In this document: piece after piece, positions 3,593 through 23,504 of the stretch
How positions within the stretch are numbered: the stretch's first letter is position 1
Layout: every line of letters starts with the position of its first letter
Assembly: GCF_900116645.1 (NCBI RefSeq)
Contig: NZ_FPBO01000012.1
Span: 62,001 to 126,000, forward strand
Direction: 5' to 3'
DNA from: Pseudoduganella namucuonensis
GTDB taxonomy: Bacteria; Pseudomonadota; Gammaproteobacteria; Burkholderiales; Burkholderiaceae_D
DNA: 64,000 nt
Notes under the pieces: generated by a model
Seen by the model: only the letters and a program-made list of their open reading frames with translations
Told to the model about the DNA's origin: nothing
Databases searched by the model: none
Position numbers and translations under genes: made by a program

Positions 3593-4965
3593 TGCCGCGC
3601 CTGTATTTCAGGTTCTACGCCGCGCTGCTGGCCAGCCTGGCCACGCTCACCATCGCGGTGGCCCTGCTCTGGCACTACGCCGGCGCCCCGTTCGAACGTT
3701 CCGACCAGACGCTGGGCACCCTGCTGCGGAACGCCCTGCCCGCCGCGGAAGCCTCGCCGGCGGAGCAGCAGGCCGCGCTGGAGCACCTGACCAAGGGGCT
3801 GCGCGCGGACATCACGCTGTACAGCCGCGAATGGGAGCGGCTGGCCTTTGTCGGCGAGCCGCTGCCGCGTCCCGAGCGGATGGAACGGCGCATGGAGCGG
3901 ATCGAGCGCATGGAGGGCATGGACGACCCGGCCGAACGCGCCGAACGCCGCGAGCGGATGGAGCGCATGCGCCGCCACGCCGAACACGCGGACCTCGACG
4001 AGCGGCCGGCGGCGGCCGGCGCCGGCGCACCGTCCCCGGGCGGGCGCCGCTTCCACATGCGGCTGGAGGACGGCCGCCACATCGTTTCCAGCACGCCGCT
4101 GCGGCAACTGCCCTCGCGGGTGCGGCTGCACACGATGCTGATCGCGCTCGCCATCATCATCGCCCTCGGCGCCTACCCCGTCGTGCGCCGCCTCACGCGC
4201 CGGCTGGAACACCTGCAGCAGGGCGTGGAATCGCTGGGCGCGGGCAACCTGGGGGCGCGCGTCGAAGTGAAAGGCGGCGACGAGGTCGCGCGGCTGGCGG
4301 CGGCCTTCAACCGCTCGGCGGACCAGATCGAGGCGCTGGTGGGCGCCCATAAATCGATGCTGGCCAACGCCTCGCACGAGCTGCGCACGCCGCTGGCCCG
4401 CATCCGCCTCGCCATGGAGCTGAGCATGGACGACGTCGATCCCAAGCGCCGCAAGGGGCTGGAGCAGGACATCGCGGAGCTGGACCAGTTGATCGACGAG
4501 ATCCTGCTGGCCAGCCGCCTGGATTCGGCCCACACCGAGACGTCCGAGGAACAGCTCGACCTGCTCGCGCTGGCGGCGGAGGAATGCGCGCGCTACGAGG
4601 AGAGCGAGCTGGAAGGCGAATCGGCCGTGGTGCGCGGCGATCCGCGCCTGCTGCGCCGCCTGCTGCGCAACCTGCTGGAAAACGCCCGACGCCACGGCGC
4701 GGCGCCCACCAGCATGTACATCCGTGTCGACGGCGGGCGGGCCGAGATCCGCGTGCAGGACGCGGGGCCGGGCGTGCCCAAGGCCGAGCAGGACAAGGTG
4801 TTCGAGCCGTTCTACCGCAGCAGCGCGGCCCGCGACAGCACCGGCTCCGGCCTGGGCCTGGCGCTGGTGCGGCAGATCGCGCGCCGCCACGGCGGCGAGG
4901 CGCGCTGCGTGGCCGAGCATGGCGGCCGCAGCGCCTTCATCGTCACGCTGCCGCTGGCCGGCTAA
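3592..4965 (+). CDS. Membrane sensor histidine kinase
   Basis: Sensor kinase of 457 residues, partner of the overlapping response regulator. The first membrane helix is at about residues 8-28, then a periplasmic domain to about 178, a second helix at about 181-197, and HAMP at about 198-250. HisKA follows with the phosphorylated H262 in ANASHELRTPLARIR, then a catalytic domain with N-box NLLENARRHG, G1 DAGPGVP, F-box VFEPFYRS and G2 GSGLGLALV. All catalytic motifs are present. The periplasmic domain contains an unusual Met/Arg/Glu repeat (residues 95-128), followed by His and acidic residues. The first ATG overlaps the regulator stop. The ligand is unknown; metal or envelope stress is possible by analogy with RstB/CpxA/CusS, not shown. 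Confidence 0.92.
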   Translation: MPRLYFRFYAALLASLATLTIAVALLWHYAGAPFERSDQTLGTLLRNALPAAEASPAEQQAALEHLTKGLRADITLYSREWERLAFVGEPLPRPERMERRMERIERMEGMDDPAERAERRERMERMRRHAEHADLDERPAAAGAGAPSPGGRRFHMRLEDGRHIVSSTPLRQLPSRVRLHTMLIALAIIIALGAYPVVRRLTRRLEHLQQGVESLGAGNLGARVEVKGGDEVARLAAAFNRSADQIEALVGAHKSMLANASHELRTPLARIRLAMELSMDDVDPKRRKGLEQDIAELDQLIDEILLASRLDSAHTETSEEQLDLLALAAEECARYEESELEGESAVVRGDPRLLRRLLRNLLENARRHGAAPTSMYIRVDGGRAEIRVQDAGPGVPKAEQDKVFEPFYRSSAARDSTGSGLGLALVRQIARRHGGEARCVAEHGGRSAFIVTLPLAG

Positions 4966-4982
4966 AACCAGATGCGGAACCA

Positions 4983-5009
4983 GGGGTCAGACCCGGCGGG
5001 TCTGCCCCC
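4983..5009. repeat. Palindromic repeat, GGGGTCAGACCC type
   Basis: Twelve-base arms (GGGGTCAGACCC and GGGTCTGCCCCC, one mismatch) separated by three bases, just after the kinase stop. A close relative lies at 6411-6441. It could fold as an RNA hairpin, but there is no following T-run, so a REP-like repeat is at least as likely as a terminator. Confidence 0.6.
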
Positions 5010-5078
5010 GGCGGTTGCACTTGGCTTGGCCTGAAAACAGGTACGATATGCCTCCGCATGCCAAATCGGAAGGTTGAA

Positions 5079-6374
5079 ATGAAACGACAGTTACTTGGCG
5101 CCCTCGCGGCCTGCGCCATGCAGGCCGCGTCGGCCGCCGGCCTCACCGCCACCGAGCAATCCATCGTCGCGGCGGTGAAGGCCAACGCCGACAAGGGCCT
5201 GGCCCTGCTGGAGCGCTCCGTGAACATCAACAGCGGCACCATGAACCACGAGGGCGTGCGCGCCGTGGGCAAACTGTTCCGCGCCGAGTTCGACGCGCTG
5301 GGCTTCCAGACCCGCTGGATCGACATGCCGCCCGCCGTGCAGCGCGCCGGCCACCTGGTGGCGGAACGCGGCGGCAAGCAGGGAAAGCGCCTGCTGCTGA
5401 TCGGCCACCTCGACACCGTGTTCGAGAAGGACAGCCCGGTGCGGCTGTGGAACCGCAACGGCAACACGGTGCGCGGCCAGGGCGTGAACGACATGAAGGG
5501 CGGCGACGTCATCATCATCGAGGCGCTGCGCGCGCTGCACTCGGTGGGCGCGCTGGACAACACCACCATCACGGTGATGTTCACGGGCGACGAGGAAAAC
5601 GCCGGCGAGCCGAAGGACATCTCGCGCGGCGACATGGTGGCGGCGGCCAAGCGCAGCGACATCGCCCTCGCCTTCGAGGCCACGGCGCTGGACGCCAAGG
5701 GCCAGGCCACCGGCACCATCGGCCGCCGCGCGTCGTCGTCGTGGGAGCTGGACGTGAAGGGCAAGCAGGGCCACTCGTCGGCCATCTTCCGCGAGCAGGC
5801 CGGCTACGGCGCCATCTACGAGGCCGCGCGCATCCTGGACGGCTTCCGCCAGCAGGTGGTGGAACCCGACCTCACCTTCAGCCCGGGCCTGATCCTGGGC
5901 GGCACCGGCGTGACCCATGACGACGCCGGCGCGCGCGGCACGGCGCACGGCAAGACCAACGTGATCCCGAACACGGCCATGGTGAAGGGCGACATGCGCT
6001 ACCTGAGCTACGAGCAGCGCGACCGCGCGCGGGCGAAGATGCGGGCCATCGTCGCGCAAAGCCTGCCGGGCACCAGCGCCAGCATCAGCTTCCACGACTC
6101 GTATCCGCCGATGTCGCCCACGGCGGGCAACCTGAAGGTGCTGGAGGTGTATTCGAAGGCCAGCGAGGACGCCGGCTACGGCCCGATCGCGCCGCTGCCG
6201 CCTGGCCTGCGCGGCGCCGGCGACGTGCAGTTCGTCGCCCCCTACGTGGACAGCCTGGACGGCCTGGGCGCCACCGGCAACGGCGCCCACTCGCCCGACG
6301 AGGACCTGGACATCAGCTCCATCGAGCGCGCGACGATACGCACGGCGATACTTTTATACCGATTGACACGCTAG
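5079..6374 (+). CDS. Secreted M20-family metallopeptidase (glutamate carboxypeptidase-like)
   Basis: Di-zinc hydrolase of 431 residues with a signal peptide (MKRQLLGALAACAMQAASAA, cleavage about residue 20), so it acts in the periplasm. M20 metal ligands and catalytic residues are visible: H110 and D112 in GHLDTVF, D138 in GQGVNDMKGG, the EE pair at 172-173 in TGDEENAG, and a late His in NGAHSPDEDLD. The dimerisation lid contains KGKQGHSSAIF. It resembles carboxypeptidase G2-type enzymes that remove C-terminal glutamate or act on small peptides; the substrate cannot be read from sequence. The ATG at 5079 is chosen because GGAAGG lies just upstream and it opens a good signal peptide. Confidence 0.9.
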   Translation: MKRQLLGALAACAMQAASAAGLTATEQSIVAAVKANADKGLALLERSVNINSGTMNHEGVRAVGKLFRAEFDALGFQTRWIDMPPAVQRAGHLVAERGGKQGKRLLLIGHLDTVFEKDSPVRLWNRNGNTVRGQGVNDMKGGDVIIIEALRALHSVGALDNTTITVMFTGDEENAGEPKDISRGDMVAAAKRSDIALAFEATALDAKGQATGTIGRRASSSWELDVKGKQGHSSAIFREQAGYGAIYEAARILDGFRQQVVEPDLTFSPGLILGGTGVTHDDAGARGTAHGKTNVIPNTAMVKGDMRYLSYEQRDRARAKMRAIVAQSLPGTSASISFHDSYPPMSPTAGNLKVLEVYSKASEDAGYGPIAPLPPGLRGAGDVQFVAPYVDSLDGLGATGNGAHSPDEDLDISSIERATIRTAILLYRLTR

Positions 6375-15708: not shown

Positions 15709-16191
15709 GTGGCCACCATCCCCTCCCTGCTGAAGATGCGCGACGCCGGCGAAAAGATCGCGACCTTGACCTGCTATGACGCCAGCTTCGCCTCCCTGAT
15801 GGACCGCTGCGGCGTGGACTTGCTGCTGGTGGGCGATTCGCTGGGCAATGTGTGCCAGGGACAGGGCAACACCCTGCCCGTCACGCTGGCCGACATCGCT
15901 TACCACACGGCCGCCGTCGCGCGTGGCAACAAGGCCGCAGTGCTTGCTGCGGATATGCCGTTTGGGACCTACGCCACGCCCCAGGCCGCGTTCGACAACG
16001 CGGTCTGGCTGATTCACGCCGGCGCGCACGTTGTCAAGTTGGAGGGCTGCGATTGGCTGGCCGACACAGTGGCCTTTCTCACCGAGCGGGGTGTCCCGGG
16101 ATTCAAGGTGCAGGGGAAAACGACCGAAAGCGCGGAGCGCCTGAAAGCCGATGCCCTGACGCGGCAGGATACGGGCGCATACATTATGTGA
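15709..16191 (+). pseudogene. panB: Truncated 3-methyl-2-oxobutanoate hydroxymethyltransferase (panB remnant)
   Basis: The first enzyme of pantothenate synthesis, here only 160 residues instead of about 265. The N-terminal half is well preserved: [26 protein letters not shown] with the metal-binding Asp, [11 protein letters not shown], and VKLEGCDW. Two lesions are visible. About 16 residues between LTERGVP and GFKVQGKT (the conserved cysteine-to-GLTPQS segment) are lost in frame, and the reading ends after GAYIM where the family continues for roughly 100 residues. The sequence after 16191 is unlike panB. A functional copy should exist elsewhere. The break lies about 57 bases from the start of the cassette array. 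Confidence 0.88.
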
Positions 16192-16247: not shown

Positions 16248-16318
16248 GCCCAACGCCAGGCGTCAGGCGCGGCGGGAAGCGGGCTCTGTCGCCTGCACGC
16301 CAATGTCATGCCTTGCAA
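16248..16318 (-). other. attC site 7 (terminal, degenerate)
   Basis: Ends the last cassette. The core GCCCAAC at 16248-16254 (GTTGGGC on the minus strand) fits the consensus. Inner stems GGCGTGCAGGCG and CGCCTGACGCC pair on the minus strand. The distal core next to the gene stop at 16319 is not recognisable, so the site is probably decayed. Confidence 0.55.
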
Positions 16319-16897
16319 CTACGATAGGGACACCAACAAGCTACGAGCGCGCTCTCGGAGTTTCGTTGCCGCGGGTTGCAACAGCTTCAAGGCTTCTTTA
16401 GCACGTTTGGGGTCAACCTTTTGTTGCTCTCCTGTAATGTTAACCTTTTCAAATTCATCATTGAGTGAGTGTATGACCTTGTCGAATTCGCGGATGGATT
16501 CTAGGAATGCGTCAAACTTTGCAGATTGTTCTTTGCCCCAATATTTCTGAATCCAAGTCGCATAAACAAACTCCTTCTTTCGAAGTGTAGTGATTGATGT
16601 ATTGTATTCGGCGACCAAGTCTGTCAGCGTTTTCTTTGTAGTCCAATTGCTTTCAATAAACTCGGTGGTCAATTCTGCGGAGAAAATATGCTGACTGATT
16701 TCTATCGCGAGTTCTTCGTACTGCTGTGTGCGAAGATCCGCGCGGTTCAAGGCGAACTTCACCGATTCGGTCATATGCCCAGAAAAAAGACTAAGAATGC
16801 CGATCATGAACGCGACGAGCCAGGTTGCTGTCTGCGTCTTGAGTGATATGGCGATCCCCTGCAGCCACGTCGGGTTAGCGGTTCCATCTGTTGCCAT
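16319..16897 (-). CDS. Cassette gene: membrane-anchored hypothetical protein
   Basis: Protein of 192 residues with one N-terminal membrane helix (TWLVAFMIGILSLFSG) and a long helical soluble domain rich in Glu, Lys and Thr. No family recognised. The start at 16897 is chosen over 16921 because AAGGAG precedes it and the upstream ATG lies inside the attC core. Codon use is far less GC-biased than the host genes, marking foreign origin. Confidence 0.75.
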   Translation of the reverse strand: MATDGTANPTWLQGIAISLKTQTATWLVAFMIGILSLFSGHMTESVKFALNRADLRTQQYEELAIEISQHIFSAELTTEFIESNWTTKKTLTDLVAEYNTSITTLRKKEFVYATWIQKYWGKEQSAKFDAFLESIREFDKVIHSLNDEFEKVNITGEQQKVDPKRAKEALKLLQPAATKLRERARSLLVSLS

Positions 16898-16917
16898 ATC
16901 GGATGCACTCCTTTCTG

Positions 16918-16974
16918 ACATAACGAGTTAATTCAGCCGCGCCGTAAGGCGTCGGCTGCAATGTTTGGTTAGCC
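16918..16974 (-). other. attC site 6
   Basis: 57-base site with outer cores ACATAAC (16918-16924) and GTTAGCC (16968-16974) and an inner hairpin CAGCCGCGCCG / CGTCGGCTG with a bulge. It ends the two-gene cassette to its right. Confidence 0.85.
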
Positions 16975-16998
16975 CTAGCTTTAGTGGCTGAGATAAGA

Positions 16999-17381
16999 TT
17001 AATTAGCATCCCCACCCTTAATGGTTCCGCCGACTACGCTTACACTGCCACCATCCCCATGTAGACCTCCGTCGCCTCCAGAAACTACGCTCCCCCACCG
17101 CCAGCACCAACGCCTCCTTCAACGATGACATTATCAAGGTGCATACTTCCACCGCCATCATGACCTGCGGTCGCAATCGCATCACCGCCTCATGCAGCGT
17201 AGAAAGGCTGTAATACGTTGATAATTTCACCCCCGGCATTCATCGGTAGGTGGTTAAGTGCGGCTGCGACATTTGGATCTGGATTAGATGCAACTGAGAG
17301 AAATCAATTGCGAATAGCAACTGCCGCCCCCGTACGGGCCGCTGCACCTTGCAGAACTTAAACAACAGTTACCGAATCCAT
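16999..17381 (-). pseudogene. Decayed glycine-rich cassette gene
   Basis: Reading from ATG at 17381, which has a good AGGAG site, the frame gives MDSVTVV, then stop codons at residues 8, 26 and later, and a frameshift near 17090. Ignoring these gives a continuous 125-residue protein: an Ala/Asn-rich first half (ASNPDPNVAAALNHLPMNAG) and a Gly-rich second half (GHDGGGSMHLDNVIVEGG, SGGDGGLHGDGG, GGTIKGGDAN). The preserved composition across stops indicates a real gene in decay. It is the second gene of a cassette, 18 bases after the stop of the preceding gene, with no attC between them. Family unknown. Confidence 0.65.
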
Positions 17382-17399
17382 AGGCTCGCTCCTAGAAAG

Positions 17400-17906
17400 T
17401 TAATTTACTAACGTGATTTGGCCCGGGAGAGTTATGATACTCGTCTGGGACAAGAGGCTGATGTATCTCGACAACGCAGCGCATTGGGTCGTGCGTCCAA
17501 TCTCCACGATTTGGCTATTAAATAGCCCTCGGCACCATGGGCTCATCAGGGAGAGACCGGGCAATTCTTTGAGTTCAAATTGCAGATATGCGACATCGGG
17601 GCGCGATAGTTCAGTAGCCCTCGTTTCAAGCCCATCCATAAGGAGGAGTTCGGCTTGAGTTTTACCCTCCGCCAACGCAAAGTCCAGATCGATGGTGCCT
17701 AGTTCCGGCGGTAGGGTTGTCACCATTATTTTCAATACCGATTGATGTAACGCCTCCTTGGGTCGTTTCGTGAGTACGAAGCACTCAGCCATTAGCTCAC
17801 TTGACGATAACTCTACCGCCGTAACGATCGCATAGCTCTCTCCCCAAACGCCAGCGGGTAAGCCACGGATGGAATAGCTTGTATATTTCGTTGCTTGATT
17901 CTGCAT
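17400..17906 (-). CDS. Cassette gene: hypothetical protein
   Basis: A 168-residue soluble protein with no recognised family. GAGGA eleven bases before ATG supports the start. It has mixed alpha-beta composition with two cysteines near residues 134 and 152 (PWCRGLF, TQCAAL). It shares a cassette with the decayed glycine-rich gene immediately downstream, suggesting the two worked together. Base composition is foreign to the host. Confidence 0.72.
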   Translation of the reverse strand: MQNQATKYTSYSIRGLPAGVWGESYAIVTAVELSSSELMAECFVLTKRPKEALHQSVLKIMVTTLPPELGTIDLDFALAEGKTQAELLLMDGLETRATELSRPDVAYLQFELKELPGLSLMSPWCRGLFNSQIVEIGRTTQCAALSRYISLLSQTSIITLPGQITLVN

Positions 17907-17921
17907 CGGAAGTTCCTCGTA

Positions 17922-17995
17922 TTCTAACGTAAAAAAGTAACTAGCTGCCGGAACGCGTAGCGTGGAGGCAGTTCAGTTAACTGCTGGGCCTAGCC
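17922..17995 (-). other. attC site 5
   Basis: 74-base site with left core TTCTAAC (17922-17928) and a degenerate right core CCTAGCC (17989-17995) overlapping the stop of the next cassette gene. The inner arms TAACTAGCTGCC and GGCAGTTCAGTTA pair imperfectly with an unpaired base, as expected for attC. Confidence 0.75.
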
Positions 17996-18415
17996 ATTTG
18001 CGTCCGAACACCAAAGTCGGAAAGAGAGGTTCTCCGGTACATCGGCGGGCGTAACTCCGAGGTCGGCGCGAATTGCAAGCATAAGTTCATTTAGCTTCTG
18101 ATCGTGATCTTCAGCCGACCGATTTGGGTTACTCCTCGCAATGGTATCTTGAAATCGCCAGAGCGCCACGAGGACGCTCTGTGACGCCACAAGGCCGATG
18201 GTGTTCGTGGCTCTTGCCCAACGGCGCTGGGCTTCTGGGGTCGAGTCAGTGCCAACGATTCCACTCAAGGCATCAAGAAATTCACGATAGTGCTCGAGTT
18301 TTTGCTTCCGCCATTCCGCCTCACGCTCCTTTCCCTTGGTGAGGAAGAACGTAATGGCCGCAACGGCAAGACTTGCTGCTGCGGTAATAACGGCCACAAA
18401 GATCGGAGTTTCCAT
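17990..18415 (-). CDS. Cassette gene: single-pass membrane protein
   Basis: A 141-residue protein with an N-terminal membrane helix (FVAVITAAASLAVAAITFFL) followed by a charged helical segment (KEREAEWRKQKLEHYREFLD), a layout common among cassette and phage-defence proteins but not diagnostic. ATG at 18415 is preferred; GTG at 18430 adds five residues. The stop lies inside attC site 5. No family recognised. Confidence 0.72.
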   Translation of the reverse strand: METPIFVAVITAAASLAVAAITFFLTKGKEREAEWRKQKLEHYREFLDALSGIVGTDSTPEAQRRWARATNTIGLVASQSVLVALWRFQDTIARSNPNRSAEDHDQKLNELMLAIRADLGVTPADVPENLSFRLWCSDANG

Positions 18416-18436
18416 TACAAAGAGGCCCACCGTTTG

Positions 18437-18495
18437 ACATAACCGGCGCTGCGCGGCCTCATCGCGCAGCGTCCGTGTTGATGGGTGGGTTAGCC
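18437..18495 (-). other. attC site 4
   Basis: 59-base site with cores ACATAAC (18437-18443) and GTTAGCC (18489-18495) around a strong hairpin GCGCTGCGCG / CGCGCAGCG with an extra-helical base. Confidence 0.88.
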
Positions 18496-18499
18496 CGAA

Positions 18500-19135
18500 T
18501 TACCACGTTTCCGCCTTCGGAACCTCAATGCCATTCGCTTTGCCAACCCCCTTCATTCTTTCCATCAGCGCCAAATAATCTTCCTTGGATTTCAGCCTAG
18601 CGAATGCGCTGTTGTAGGAATTGAAGTCAGCGTCAGAGATGTAGGGGCGAATAACCGTAACGCGCTGTCGAAAATAGCTAGCAATGAGGTTCTCTTGGTT
18701 AACTATCAAGAACTTAACAATGAAATACGACCCCGTTAGGGTTCCAAAAAGCGTGACGGTTAGCAATAACTTGAAAGCCCGTTTTCGCTGATTACCGGAA
18801 AGCACTTTTTCGTTTAGCTGCTCGTTCCCGGTCATCACTTTCTTGAAGGCTGACAGAATAAGCGGAGTGGCCGCTATAATACCAGGCATTGTGAATATGA
18901 AAGCGCTCGCCATTAGAAGAATGTAAAGGCTAGCTAGTTCATGCAGGCCAAGAGCAGCGTTGGCATATTCGTCATCTTGAATGGACTTAATTCCGAGCGT
19001 GGCTACACTCAGTATCCAGTTCCCGATCCTTTCAATAGATGGCTCAACTAGATTCCAGAGGCCACTGCCCAATGCACCCAAGACAATTGTGGCGCTTACA
19101 CTGACCCAATATTTTTTCCGGTTTGACGTTTCCAT
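18500..19135 (-). CDS. Cassette gene: multi-pass membrane protein
   Basis: A 211-residue protein with about three membrane helices: SVSATIVLGALGSGLWNLV, ASLYILLMASAFIFTMPGII and LLLTVTLFGTLTGSYFIVKF. It ends in a soluble helical tail (KSKEDYLALMERMKGVG). GAGG lies nine bases before ATG. Family unrecognised. The stop is five bases from the core of attC site 4. It is the largest cassette gene here. Confidence 0.74.
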   Translation of the reverse strand: METSNRKKYWVSVSATIVLGALGSGLWNLVEPSIERIGNWILSVATLGIKSIQDDEYANAALGLHELASLYILLMASAFIFTMPGIIAATPLILSAFKKVMTGNEQLNEKVLSGNQRKRAFKLLLTVTLFGTLTGSYFIVKFLIVNQENLIASYFRQRVTVIRPYISDADFNSYNSAFARLKSKEDYLALMERMKGVGKANGIEVPKAETW

Positions 19136-19161
19136 TTGATATTACCTCTAGCAGGAATTGG

Positions 19162-19218
19162 GGCTAACGTGAAGTTGACCGGCAGCCGTAGGCGGTCCGG
19201 TCGAATGGCATGTTAGAC
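19162..19218 (-). other. attC site 3
   Basis: 57-base site with cores GGCTAAC (19162-19168) and GTTAGAC (19212-19218). Inner arms TTGACCGG and CCGGTCGAA pair around a short loop. The TAA stop of the adjacent gene is formed by the core sequence itself. Confidence 0.9.
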
Positions 19219-19692
19219 CACATTTCGCAGTTGACGCGGCGTGATGACGCAGAAAGCAATGAGTGCGATAAGTGGAACAAACAGCTTGATCTGCACCCAC
19301 GCCGACGCCGAGACCGTCGTGACGAGAACAAGGTTCCCTGCTGCCAGAGCCAAATAGAACGCAAAGAGCAACCAGTGGAACTTGCGCCATGCCGCAACAG
19401 CTAGACCAAGACGTCGCCCCCAAATAAGGGACAAAATTCCGGGCCTGCGTTTAATCATGGACAGTACAAGAATCAGCGCCAAACAAAGGTAAATCACAGT
19501 TGGTTTCAAACGAATAAATTCGTCCGACGTGGGCATCGAGAGCGCGACAGGAAGCGCAGCCAACAATTGCAGAAAAAACACTCGCCAAAATAGCGATGCG
19601 GCAAGGCCAACTCCGAATTCGCTCCGCGAATCCGGAGTCAGTGTATCTTGCTGTGGTGCCGCTGGCGGCGCATATGGATTAGGACGTGGCAT
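19213..19692 (-). CDS. Cassette gene: four-helix membrane protein
   Basis: A 159-residue integral membrane protein with a short Pro-rich cytosolic N terminus (MPRPNPYAPPAAPQQ) and about four hydrophobic helices (FWRVFFLQLLAALPVALS, VIYLCLALILVLSMI, HWLLFAFYLALAAGNLVLV, LFVPLIALIAFCVI). The MxxPNPYxxP start occurs in many small uncharacterised membrane proteins. There is no convincing ribosome-binding site. The stop overlaps attC site 3. Confidence 0.74.
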   Translation of the reverse strand: MPRPNPYAPPAAPQQDTLTPDSRSEFGVGLAASLFWRVFFLQLLAALPVALSMPTSDEFIRLKPTVIYLCLALILVLSMIKRRPGILSLIWGRRLGLAVAAWRKFHWLLFAFYLALAAGNLVLVTTVSASAWVQIKLFVPLIALIAFCVITPRQLRNVV

Positions 19693-19705
19693 ATCTTTTG
19701 TAGGG

Positions 19706-19796
19706 ATCTAACGTGATGGTGAGCGGCTGGCCGCCCGGAAACGGAACATTGAACTGCGTTACATCCGGCCAGTCCGCCTCGACCTAATTGTTAGGC
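19706..19796 (-). other. attC site 2
   Basis: 91-base site, the longest here, with cores ATCTAAC (19706-19712) and GTTAGGC (19790-19796), both fitting the consensus. Inner arms GAGCGGCTGGCCG and CGGCCAGTCCGCCTC pair with bulged bases and a long loop. Confidence 0.9.
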
Positions 19797-20291
19797 CACA
19801 TCCGGAAACTTCCAATCGATAAATTGTAGCCTGAAGCGCTCTAACTCCTGGGCCGCGACCGCTAGGCGCGCGAGGTCACCATCAAATGCAGCAGGTTGAA
19901 GTTCCTCCTCCTTTTCTTCGCGTTCGCCCTTGCTTCCTCGAAGTCTTGAGTTTGTGCGAAGTAAGCCTTCCTTGCCATGGATATTTATCCAACGGTTGTA
20001 GCGCGAATGGACAAGCTCGTTCCGACGCTCGCCAAGATCACGGAGTTTAACCATCAGGTCATGGAATTGCTTTTTCATGTCGCTATCCACGCTGCCTCGG
20101 TGATCCACAAAACAAGCGAAAGCGACATCTGCTGTCGTTAAGCGTTTGCCGAATTCGAGTTCATTTATCAGAATTCGAACAATCTCATCGTTTGCATCGG
20201 CCATGTAAACGAGTAGCGTATTAACGCCATCTTCCAAATGCTGGAAATTAACAATGAACTGGCCGAGCTGATGAAAGGCTGTAGGTGTCAT
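19791..20291 (-). CDS. Cassette gene: probable HEPN-like domain protein
   Basis: A 166-residue helical protein. The segment LRDLGERRNELVHSRYNRW (residues 83-101) carries R-x4-H (R90 to H95) flanked by the RNELVHS pattern that marks HEPN-superfamily RNases and RNA-binding proteins. The N-terminal helices (AFHQLGQFIVNFQHLEDGVN) fit the four-helix HEPN bundle. A Lys/Glu-rich insert (GSKGEREEKEEE) follows. HEPN proteins act as toxins or defence RNases in several systems, but no antitoxin partner (for example MNT nucleotidyltransferase) is in this cassette. The assignment rests on motif and helical pattern only. The stop is inside attC site 2. Confidence 0.7.
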   Translation of the reverse strand: MTPTAFHQLGQFIVNFQHLEDGVNTLLVYMADANDEIVRILINELEFGKRLTTADVAFACFVDHRGSVDSDMKKQFHDLMVKLRDLGERRNELVHSRYNRWINIHGKEGLLRTNSRLRGSKGEREEKEEELQPAAFDGDLARLAVAAQELERFRLQFIDWKFPDVA

Positions 20292-20301
20292 GGTGTTTTG
20301 G

Positions 20302-20368
20302 GCTTAACGTGAGAATTCACCGGACTGCGCGGCTTTTTGCGCAGGTCCGGTGGAATGATGGGTTAGCC
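20302..20368 (-). other. attC site 1
   Basis: 67-base site with cores GCTTAAC (20302-20308) and GTTAGCC (20362-20368). Inner arms CACCGGACTGCGC and GCGCAGGTCCGGTG pair almost completely, leaving one extra-helical base, the feature that orients strand choice in attC recombination. Confidence 0.92.
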
Positions 20369-20812
20369 AAAGATCCTCCAGCCGCGCTCTTGTACGTCAA
20401 AAGCCATGAAAGGAGAATTCTGAGACCCTTCTGGTGTAACGGATGCATTTACACCTACAGCAAGGGCAGCCCCCTCGATGAAGTCTAGCAAGGAGTTGTG
20501 CTCATTGGGGCCTAGGACTTCGCGAGGGTCTAAATCGAGTTCAATTTCGTCATCGAGAACGAAATGGCAATTCGCGGTAGCATCGCCAACCCAGATCGAC
20601 AGGCAATGGCTTCTATCGCGGAGCCGAAAGACTTCTGCGACCCCAGGGAAATCCGCGTCTTCACCATCGGCTTTATAAGTAAATGGATGCGCCGAAGCAT
20701 ACTGTATAAACTTCGACCAACCTTCCGCACTAATATCGGCCAGGTAAACGTCGCGAAGTGAGCCATCAGGCTCCCACAGCATCGGAATCTGAGCAAAGGT
20801 CGGTCGGTTCAT
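20363..20812 (-). CDS. Cassette gene: hypothetical protein (first in reading order)
   Basis: A 149-residue soluble acidic protein, no recognised family; mixed alpha-beta with the segment FVLDDEIELDLDPREVLGP and a C-terminal FDVQERGWRIFG. The ATG is only a few bases from the GTTAGCC junction, so there is no room for a ribosome-binding site inside the cassette; translation would rely on upstream sequence or a leaderless start. The stop codon is made by the attC core. It sits at the promoter-proximal end of the array. Confidence 0.74.
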   Translation of the reverse strand: MNRPTFAQIPMLWEPDGSLRDVYLADISAEGWSKFIQYASAHPFTYKADGEDADFPGVAEVFRLRDRSHCLSIWVGDATANCHFVLDDEIELDLDPREVLGPNEHNSLLDFIEGAALAVGVNASVTPEGSQNSPFMAFDVQERGWRIFG

Positions 20813-21060
20813 AGGCTAACGTGAAGTAGACGCCCCAACCGTCGCCGTCTCTCCCGACCAAGTCGTGAGATTCCGCGTGGAAGGCCGCGCCTTTATTTTA
20901 TTATCAAAGAGTTACCCCACTTTAGCACACCCGAATCCTAAGAACCAACCCCACCTTGGAAACGACGTAGTCGAAGCTAATCCGAAACTGCTGGTCTAAG
21001 TCGGATGATCGCTGTGCCGTACGGTGGCAGCAATCGAACCCAACTGCACTGCCCAAGAAA
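20813..21060. other. Right junction of the cassette array, non-coding
   Basis: Begins with a lone core site GGCTAAC (20815-20821) followed by GTGAAGTAGACG, the same left-end pattern as attC sites 1-3, but no matching right core is found. This is either half of a broken attC or the position of a former attI. The remaining 170 bases up to the DUF296 stop hold no gene I can support and no integrase remnant. Confidence 0.5.
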
Positions 21061-21465
21061 TCAGGATAGTCGGGTGCGTACAACCAATTCCTTATACCCC
21101 GAGTTTGGATCCGGCTCGCGGCTGAACTCGTGCGCGGGGAGCAGCGCCAGCAGCAGTTCGGCCGTGGTGCGGACGATGCAACCTGGCGCGACGTGGCCGC
21201 CGAAAACCCGGCCCGCCGCGTCGGAGACCGACATGTGCAAATGCGCTCCGTCAGGCGCGACCGATCCGGCCAGCGTGAGGATTTCAAGGTCCCCGCGCAG
21301 CTCGGTCGGTTGCGGCTGGCCCGCGTAGCGCAGCCACGCCACGCCCAAGCTGCCTATGCCTTGCAGCACGAAGGCCGCGCCGCCCTGCCCCGCCTCCGCC
21401 ACCGCGGCTTCGATGGCGGCGCGCAGGTCCTGGCCCGGAGCGAGCCGAAGCGGATGCGCCTGCAT
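21061..21465 (-). CDS. DUF296/PPC-domain protein
   Basis: A 134-residue single PPC (plant and prokaryote conserved, AT-hook-associated) domain protein. Family features are FVLQGIGSLGVAWLRY, LEILTLAGSVAPDGAHLHMS and GRVFGGHVAPGCIV, the last providing the conserved Gly-Gly-His. Bacterial members form trimers of unknown function. ATG at 21465 is two bases after the upstream gene's stop, so the two are co-transcribed; an in-frame upstream start at 21624 is rejected because it runs through the neighbour. Confidence 0.87.
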   Translation of the reverse strand: MQAHPLRLAPGQDLRAAIEAAVAEAGQGGAAFVLQGIGSLGVAWLRYAGQPQPTELRGDLEILTLAGSVAPDGAHLHMSVSDAAGRVFGGHVAPGCIVRTTAELLLALLPAHEFSREPDPNSGYKELVVRTRLS

Positions 21466-21467
21466 GC

Positions 21468-21848
21468 TCAACCCGCGATCTTGGGCGCGACCAGCGCGGT
21501 GAATTCGCCGCTGTCGACCAGGCGCTGCAAGTCCTGCGCGCCGCCGATCAGCGTGCCGTTGACGAAGACCATCGGCAGCGTGGACCAGCCGCTCCACATC
21601 TTCAGCGCCAGCCGGCGCCGCCATTGGCTCAGGTAGCTGCCGTATTCGAGGTACAGATACGGCGTGCCCAGGCCGTCCAGCAATTTGCGCGCCTTGCGCG
21701 GAAACGGGTTCATCGCCATGCCCACGACCACCACCTTGTTCGAGGCCACCGCCGCCTGCACCGCCTTCACGGTGTCGGCGTGATTGTCGGCGATCCGGCC
21801 GCGTATGGACGGGTGGATGCGGGTTTCTTCAAGGACGGGACGGCTCAT
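21468..21848 (-). CDS. Glutaredoxin-like protein lacking the active-site cysteine
   Basis: A 126-residue thioredoxin-fold protein of the glutaredoxin-related family. The strand-helix VVVVGMAMNPFPRKARKLLD aligns with the usual CPxC or CGFS site but reads MNPF, with no cysteine anywhere in the protein. The cis-proline strand is intact (TLPMVFVNGTLIGGAQDLQ) and so is the LEYGSYLSQWRRRLALKMWSG middle. It therefore cannot do classical disulfide exchange. It is co-directional and nearly contiguous with the DUF296 gene. Confidence 0.85.
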   Translation of the reverse strand: MSRPVLEETRIHPSIRGRIADNHADTVKAVQAAVASNKVVVVGMAMNPFPRKARKLLDGLGTPYLYLEYGSYLSQWRRRLALKMWSGWSTLPMVFVNGTLIGGAQDLQRLVDSGEFTALVAPKIAG

Positions 21849-21902
21849 GGCGTTTCCTGGTTCGGGTTATCGATGACGCAATGTATCCCGCCGCGCGGGC
21901 AA

Positions 21903-22313
21903 TTACAACATCGCCAGGGTGGCCGGGTCGGGATGGCCGCTGAAAAAGCTGTCCAGGCAGCGCTGGAAGATGGCGTCCCCGGGCGCGGCGCGCGCGAACA
22001 GGGTCATGCAGGAGCGGAATTTCAGGTCGTCCGGCGAGCCGAAGATGTCGTGCGCGGACGCGTCCGGCACGGCGGCCACCAGCTCGCTGCATTCGCGCAG
22101 GCGCGGGCCCAGCACCGGATGCGCCAGGTAGGCCCGCGCCTCGGCCAGGCCGGATATCGCGTAGCGCTGCGCCATGGCGCTGTGCCCCAGGCCGGCGAGC
22201 TGGGGGAAGATGAACCACATCCAGTGGCTGCGCTTGCGGCCGGTGCTCAGTTCGCGCAGCACGGCGCTGTACACGGGCGCTTGCGCTTCGAGGAATCGTT
22301 CAAGTTCAAACAT
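21903..22313 (-). CDS. DUF1810 family protein
   Basis: A 136-residue helical protein with family hallmarks GRKRSHWMWFIFPQLAGLG, LAHPVLGPRLRECSE and FGSPDDLKFRSCMTLFA. DUF1810 proteins are cytosolic and uncharacterised; calpastatin-like names in databases are misleading. It is separated from the glutaredoxin-like gene by 54 bases on the same strand and has the TnpB element immediately upstream. Confidence 0.88.
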   Translation of the reverse strand: MFELERFLEAQAPVYSAVLRELSTGRKRSHWMWFIFPQLAGLGHSAMAQRYAISGLAEARAYLAHPVLGPRLRECSELVAAVPDASAHDIFGSPDDLKFRSCMTLFARAAPGDAIFQRCLDSFFSGHPDPATLAML

Positions 22314-22348
22314 GGCGTGCTCCTTTCATCTGATTTTGCTCCGAGAAA

Positions 22349-23504
22349 CCTCGTCCTTCAGGACGGGGAGTGAAAGGAGCCGACTGCAAAGCAGTCGAAC
22401 TCGGGTCGATTAAAATGGGAACCAGTTCCGGCTCTGCTGGTCAAACAAGCATGAAACAGGTCTATCGGTATCGTGTGAAATCGCTGACCGGCTTGCTGAA
22501 CAAGAAAGCACGGGCGGTCAACTTCGTGTGGAACTACTGCAATGACAGGCAGAAGGACGCGCTGCGCTTCAACCGCCGCTGGCACTCCGGCTTCGACCTG
22601 ATCAAGCTGACCACCGGCTGCAGCAAGGAACTGGGTCTGCATTCCGGCACGGTCAACGACGTGTGCCAGCAGTACGCCAAATCGCGCAGCCAGTCGCGCC
22701 GTCCCTATCTGCGTTTCCGGGGCCGGAAATCGCTGGGTTGGGTGCCGCTCAAGGGCCGCGAGTTGAAGCGGGAAGGCAATGCCTTCCGCTTCGCCGGCGA
22801 TACCTTCCGCGTGTTTTACTCGCGGCCGCTGCCTGCAGGGAAAATCCTGGACGGCACCAACTTTTCCCGCGACCGCCGTGGAAACTGGTTCCTGAACATC
22901 GTGCTGGAAGTCGCGGAGCCGCCCGCAAGGACGCCGGTGCGTGGGGTTGGCATCGATCTGGGCCTGAAGGATTTGGCTACGCTGTCCACAGGCGAAAAGA
23001 TCGAAGCGCCGCAGATATACCGCGAAGCCGAGGCGGCGCTGGCGGTGGCGCAGCGCGCCCGCAAGAGGCGGCGGGTAACGGCCATCCACGCGAAGATCGC
23101 GAATCGCCGGCACGATTTTCTTCACAAGTGTTCCACCCGCATGGTGCGCGACTTCGACTACATCGTGGTCGGCAATGTCCAAGCCGCCGCGCTGACCAAA
23201 ACCCGCATGGCGAAGTCGGTGCTGGATGCGGGCTGGTCGTGCTTCCGCAATCAACTGGCGTACAAGGCTGTTAAGCATGGCGCCTGGTTCGAGGAAGTGG
23301 ACGAACGTTTCACCACCCAGGTCTGCTCGAATTGCGGCACCATGCCCGATACGAGGCCGAAAGGTATCGCAGACCTTGGAATAAGGGAATGGAGATGCGG
23401 CGATTGCGGTGCTGAACATGATCGTGATCTCAATGCTGCGTTAAACATTCTCCGTCGCGGACGTGCGACGCTAGCTGTAGGAATCTCCGTCCTTTAGGGC
23501 GGAG
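22349..23504 (+). mobile_element. Solo tnpB element of the IS200/IS605 type (IS1341-like)
   Basis: The element has a hairpin at each end with the same layout. At the left, CCTCGTCC-TTCA-GGACGGGG (22349-22368); at the right, CTCCGTCC-TTTA-GGGCGGAG (23485-23504), overlapping the tnpB stop. A second small hairpin (CGACTGC-AAA-GCAGTCG, 22381-22397) lies inside the left end. No TnpA (Y1 transposase) is present, so mobility would need one in trans. Exact cleavage sites cannot be set. The right-end hairpin is where the guide-RNA scaffold of TnpB systems normally ends. Confidence 0.82.
22451..23497 (+). CDS. tnpB: TnpB family RNA-guided nuclease-like protein
   Basis: A 348-residue TnpB/OrfB protein. 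RuvC-I is present (GVGIDLGLKDLATLS), RuvC-III is present (EHDRDLNAALNIL), and the zinc ribbon has two CxxC pairs (CSNCG and CGDCG). At the usual RuvC-II glutamate the sequence reads YIVVGNVQAAAL, with no acidic residue; a nearby EEVDE segment could substitute. Family proteins use an RNA copied from the element's right end to cut DNA. ATG at 22451 (MKQVYRYRVKSL) is preferred over GTG at 22370, which lies in the left-end hairpins. Whether it is active is uncertain. Confidence 0.88.
   Translation: MKQVYRYRVKSLTGLLNKKARAVNFVWNYCNDRQKDALRFNRRWHSGFDLIKLTTGCSKELGLHSGTVNDVCQQYAKSRSQSRRPYLRFRGRKSLGWVPLKGRELKREGNAFRFAGDTFRVFYSRPLPAGKILDGTNFSRDRRGNWFLNIVLEVAEPPARTPVRGVGIDLGLKDLATLSTGEKIEAPQIYREAEAALAVAQRARKRRRVTAIHAKIANRRHDFLHKCSTRMVRDFDYIVVGNVQAAALTKTRMAKSVLDAGWSCFRNQLAYKAVKHGAWFEEVDERFTTQVCSNCGTMPDTRPKGIADLGIREWRCGDCGAEHDRDLNAALNILRRGRATLAVGISVL

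Follow-up and report, generated by a model that had tools for sequence, protein, structure and literature searches.

Clusters of attC sites lacking an integrase (CALINs) have been proposed to be degraded integrons, and in one large survey they were about as common as complete integrons, with 2961 against 2760 (PMC9024848, available to us in part); the same source portrays attI as poorly described outside class 1. In Xanthomonas, the intI of the chromosomal integron has been inactivated by breakage or deletion in many strains that retain their arrays, and CALINs are found at other loci (PMC12444791, likewise available in part). Both CALINs and integrase decay are already known, Xanthomonas being one example. 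Here we describe a row of seven attC sites in Pseudoduganella namucuonensis, within a stretch of 64,000 nucleotides of contig NZ_FPBO01000012.1 (64 kb, hereafter the window), that is a CALIN by current usage, being a cluster of attC with no intI gene nearby, and in which attI is still visible. Compared with a complete integron, the locus has, judging from homology, an attI adjoining its first cassette, and of intI itself a 5' relic only. We consider it very probable that the array is a decayed chromosomal integron that formerly had its own attI, leader, and intI.

The locus resembles the CALINs of the survey (PMC9024848, in the part available) in having at least two clustered attC and no nearby intI, and differs from them in that attI and a piece of intI are recognisable, so that its origin would be seen rather than supposed. 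With the Xanthomonas integrons (PMC12444791, in the part available) it shares a chromosomal platform that has lost intI and kept its array, but there a retained intI always lies at ilvD, whereas in our case one genome carries the same attI head at several unrelated locations. Nearest are five intI-bearing integrons, of P. rivuli FT92W, P. ginsengisoli KCTC 42409, Duganella sp. SG902, D. rivi FT55W, and Duganella sp. CF402, which have the same leader block and fall under one attC model, yet retain intI at full length (carrying one in-frame stop in P. ginsengisoli). A search of the literature on integrons in Massilia, Oxalobacteraceae, and Duganella returned nothing on the subject by title and start of abstract, most subscription journals lying outside that search. 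New here is what we read as direct sequence evidence that such arrays derive from whole integrons, namely eight intI-less attI heads in three species, three of them with relics.

attC sites, attI, and the missing integrase

At its gathering thresholds Rfam matched one tRNA in the window and nothing inside the array, and we therefore built a covariance model of our own, R1. It comprises 30 intI-linked attC from other genomes, none from the window, hand-picked by eye among the results of a pattern-and-fold scan of intI loci, many of which had adjoining attC-like sites; the secondary structure was drawn by hand on the alignment of these 30. False sites were numerous in the scan, which overlooked 16248 and 17922, and its role was limited to this choice of training sites. 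In the training set 86.7% of cells were paired, against 24.6-48.0% with partners slid, and double-change cells numbered 92, against 36.1 in shuffles, while two of the five covariation measures were unremarkable (pairs changed on both sides, 11 vs 10.1; further pair types, 29 vs 26.0).

Run over the whole window with filters off, R1 matched all seven sites at 25.5-51.7 bits, and the best background match among the 15 matches listed reached 10.6 bits (E 3.6, these E-values being rough), leaving about 15 bits between the weakest attC and the best background. The matched sites are 57-91 bases long and present an attC-type stem with R and L boxes and unpaired bases on one bottom-strand arm; core boxes are recognisable at both ends in five of the seven, 16248 and 17922 having a degenerate R''. 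Between neighbouring sites the longest open reading frame (ORF) was on the minus strand every time (shorter, mechanical plus-strand ORFs exist), and the three genes that end at 19213, 19791, and 20363 have their stops within the adjacent core. A first-pass annotation made from the letters alone had proposed just these features, namely seven attC-like sites in that range of lengths, inner stems with unpaired bases, genes facing one way, and three gene stops in the cores, and it passed the covariance check. It had also read TAACGTGA, shared by the left ends of 19162, 19706, and 20302 and by the core at 20815, as a sign of common origin; the string is present at all of these places, and at 17408 as well, but it is not distinctive, since it occurs in 5 of the 30 training attC (AACG occurs in all 30). 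By eye, attC 17922 is like an intI-linked attC of Duganella sp. SG902 (211-282 of its locus L011). GC content, calculated per 1 kb, is 0.49-0.53 in the array, 0.66-0.69 to its left, 0.67 immediately to its right, and 0.58-0.65 further right.

The core at 20815, which the first-pass annotation had taken for an orphan attC core, appears from homology to be the attI instead, at the start of a conserved segment of about 150 bases from the AAC of the core. We identify this segment, hereafter the head, as attI plus the leader of intI because the P. rivuli copy continues into an intact intI. In the window, homology to that intI ends after the short relic listed in Table 1, which tblastn alone misses and a DNA alignment makes visible; beside the head, tblastn found no intI. 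Within the leader, the IHF-like candidate TATCAAAGAGTTA fits WATCAANNNNTTR, which we take to be the IHF consensus, and a sigma-70-like promoter consensus had no match in 20780-21100. The conserved leader may still work, for example as a cassette promoter, or may merely have been constrained until recently, and it could equally have served intI. The head also contains a terminator-like hairpin (20875-20894) reading toward the former intI; it was matched by 2 overlapping hits, where shuffles gave a mean of 0.3.

The integrase gene was sought with NCBIfam TIGR02249, whose curated cut-off is 265 bits. Throughout the 8.49-Mb draft assembly of P. namucuonensis no match exceeded it, the best reaching 85.2 bits, and the array is integrase-less as first described. 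Matches below the cut-off carry little weight, a search at E <= 0.001 having been positive in 14 of 14 control genomes. Across the family, 36 of 294 genomes exceeded the curated cut-off, and among the 26 same-genus genomes listed, our own included, ten had a match at E <= 1e-60.

The history that we propose would begin with an integron that had its own attI, leader, and intI at this locus and captured cassettes at attI, so that the cassette genes came to lie on the minus strand, each ending in an attC. Subsequently intI would have been lost through decay and deletion, leaving attI, the leader, a short 5' relic, seven recognisable attC, seven open cassette ORFs, and one decayed cassette. With no integrase in the cell the array would be frozen. 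An IntI that arrived from outside or came back might in principle still act on it in trans, given that five of the seven attC have recognisable core boxes on either side.

The same head elsewhere in the genome and in relatives

Within the P. namucuonensis genome, the first ~130 bases of the query 20870-22360 recur on contigs C38, C74, and C65, each time adjoining attC, and they recur also in P. rivuli. Remnants of intI lie directly past the head in the window and on C38 and C65, so that three of the four heads of this genome would once have belonged to whole integrons. A genome search with R1 gave at least 21 matches on C74, C65, C38, C48, and C34, counts that are lower bounds because 150 of 14556 first-look candidates were scored and four of the seven window sites listed. 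The arrays on these contigs have cassettes in common, one between C65 and C74 (96% over 350 bases) and one between C65 and C38 (90%), and cassettes of C65 are found also on C33 of P. ginsengisoli (88%), on C11 of P. rivuli (88%), and in genome G067 (83%). The cassette common to C65 and C74 lies at C65 10512-10763 (locus L078), near the contig end, and at C74 111-362 (locus L079), near its start, and C65 and C74 may adjoin each other within a single long array. The head on C74 runs on into a second attC row; on this contig of 5261 bases a single head thus stands between two attC rows of the same orientation, as if the array of one integron had been fused to another's head. A lone attC-like site of 35.3 bits was seen on C34 (2929-2988 of locus L081), with no head found nearby.

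A DNA search located the head 10 times among 74 same-genus genomes, in three of them: four copies in our own, four in P. rivuli, and two in P. ginsengisoli. This is a lower bound, because SG902 and FT55W, both among the 74, have a more distant leader that the search misses. Pseudoduganella and Duganella are the nearest named relatives, in keeping with the Oxalobacteraceae-like placing first given to this DNA. On its cassette side each of the ten heads is accompanied by one or more R1 attC, and two heads are followed by a full-length intI, intact on P. rivuli C11 and with one in-frame stop on P. ginsengisoli C33, whereas the other eight are not. The intact intI of P. rivuli FT92W encodes 328 amino acids (aa) and is 72-75% identical to those of Duganella sp. 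SG902 and D. rivi FT55W, and the same leader stands upstream of intI in these two and in Duganella sp. CF402. A degenerate leader pattern built from twelve copies in hand matched nine stretches in a collection of 84,980 species (which may omit records of our own genome), all of them in Duganella or Pseudoduganella; eight are among the copies used to build it, the ninth, in Duganella sp. CF402, being new. Five of the nine are followed by intI and four are not. In P. rivuli, a cassette is common to C21 and C27 (97% over 138 bases). Two further observations concern the intI-bearing P. rivuli array, which contains transposase-like ORFs, assigned by eye, at 4301-5864 of its locus L082, and a 1.65-kb stretch 71% identical to an array stretch in genome G283.

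Alternative origins of the array

Several observations weigh against decay of an integron at this locus. The assembly is a draft of 103 contigs (98.9% complete, 5.36% contamination), so intI may sit in a gap; C74 is a contig of 5.3 kb, and C65 terminates within an array. The head on C74 has no intI relic. For the window array no empty site was found, its flanks lying on different contigs or far apart in relatives, and in the same comparison for C38 one flank matches many paralogues. Between the window cassettes and 18 other array stretches there was no common DNA match of at least 110 bases (E <= 1e-8). Three of the seven attC reach only 25-28 bits with R1, and two of these have a degenerate box, as a chance string of hairpins between unrelated genes might. 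Given the margin over the 64-kb background under a model trained independently, and the presence of this head at other arrays of the genome, such a string is so improbable that we set it aside. It is very doubtful, too, that an integrase working from another locus put the cassettes into secondary sites, with neither attI nor intI ever present here: CALINs lying apart from intI have been described (PMC9024848 and PMC12444791, each available in part), but this array begins at a conserved attI with a 5' relic of intI behind it.

A distinctly unlikely, though more serious, alternative is that attI, leader, and cassettes spread as satellite platforms without an intI of their own, served in trans by one integrase, and that our genome lost this helper. 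The make-up of the relatives speaks for it, P. rivuli having one head with an intact intI and three without, and P. ginsengisoli one with intI (with its stop) and one without. In four of the eight orphan heads (P. rivuli C27, C21, and C66, and P. ginsengisoli C128) homology ends within a few bases, just before the start of intI, and on C74 it ends a little earlier, which leaves room for an intI-free mobile unit; a shared end point may, however, just mark the end of constraint. Mean pairwise identity among the eight is highest in the leader (83%) and falls through attI (74%), the middle (67%), and the next block (56%) to 33% over the start of intI, but the leader is also 89% identical between the two intI-bearing copies, in which the start of intI is 67% identical. 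On P. rivuli C66 (5400-9000 of locus L114), some 2.2 kb with a head and one attC follow a highly conserved gene, and at the matching place on P. ginsengisoli C47 the flanks are only 47 bases apart; the insert, though, contains other DNA beyond head and cassette. In the comparison of array stretches, the intI-bearing array had no cassette in common with that genome's orphan arrays, either in P. rivuli or in P. ginsengisoli, and the relics past three of the four heads in our own genome argue for former whole integrons. We accordingly favour a decayed integron in the window. A broader suggestion is unlikely as well, if somewhat less so: in Pseudoduganella and Duganella the attI-leader unit may outlive the integrase and perhaps spread apart from it as orphan platforms, with several attI-headed arrays in one genome that rely on the leader for their expression and, where a single IntI exists, on its action in trans.

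Cassette genes and neighbouring features

Interspersed with the sites are seven open cassette ORFs, 146-211 aa long and all on the minus strand, together with one decayed stretch (Table 1). For six of the seven no Pfam match exceeded the cut-off, and on ORF 19213..19692 the NCBIfam septation models score far below theirs. Two genes, 19791-20291 and 20363-20812, were searched for across 349 genomes of the order and were found in two and one of them, respectively; the second copy of the former, in another family, is flanked by weak attC-like sites (16.8 and 14.8 bits). As far as tested, on two of the seven genes, such sparse occurrence is the behaviour of cassettes and not of a conserved operon in relatives, the case that the first-pass annotation had set against its own reading. 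A role of the cassettes in defence was considered and rejected, PADLOC giving only two weak and unconvincing matches (E 0.0046 and 0.038).

A truncated copy of panB lies immediately beyond the distal end of the array. A second panB-like DNA match is present elsewhere in the genome (its contig C11:82228-82577, 80%), and a motif look for panB at locus L083 gave nothing. Near the array, on the plus strand of the window at 22370-23497, is a gene for a TnpB-family RNA-guided endonuclease (NCBIfam NF040570, 225.9 bits).

Table 1. Features of the array and its borders, in window coordinates
Feature	Position	Strand	Remarks
Truncated panB (ketopantoate hydroxymethyltransferase) copy	15709..16191	+	Pfam PF02548, 5.5e-49, profile 3-132 of 259
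Last attC	16248..16311	+ (bottom strand of site)	R1 25.8 bits; R' intact, R'' degenerate
Cassette ORF, 200 aa	16319..16921	-	Probably one membrane segment (by eye); nothing above cut-off in Pfam or NCBIfam, nothing in PADLOC
attC	16918..16974	+	R1 43.7 bits
Decayed cassette, coding remnant	16975..17407	-	Three-frame translation: stops, apparent frame change, partly Gly-rich
Cassette ORF, 168 aa	17400..17906	-	No family assigned
Half core CTAACGTGA, attC remnant at most	17406..17437	+	R1 5.3 bits only, unsupported as attC
attC with weak R''	17922..17995	+	R1 25.5 bits
Cassette ORF, 146 aa	17990..18430	-	N-terminal membrane segment (by eye); family matches all below cut-off
attC	18437..18495 (R1 match 18425-18495)	+	R1 28.0 bits
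Cassette ORF, 211 aa	18500..19135	-	Several membrane segments (by eye); no family above cut-off
attC	19162..19218	+	R1 51.7 bits
Cassette ORF, 159 aa, IspA-like stretch	19213..19692	-	Pfam PF04279, 62.1 bits (cut-off 28.7)
attC	19706..19796	+	R1 41.5 bits
Cassette ORF, 166 aa	19791..20291	-	58% identical gene in a genome of another family
attC	20302..20368	+	R1 45.8 bits
First cassette ORF, adjoining attI, 149 aa	20363..20812	-	Own genome only among the 349 of the order
attI and leader (by homology)	20818..20965	+	Homology to other heads begins at crossover AAC (GTT on minus strand)
IHF-like candidate TATCAAAGAGTTA	20902..20914	+	Within best-conserved leader block
intI 5' relic (by DNA alignment)	20967..21012	+	Aligned to intact P. 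rivuli intI locus; start codon lost, in-frame stop after ten codons

The array thus preserves an unusually good record of what was probably the loss of an integrase. Its lineage-specific attI and leader link integrase-less arrays to whole integrons and can be used as a search string for such heads, and the genome offers a natural case in which to follow the fate of cassettes after shuffling stops.

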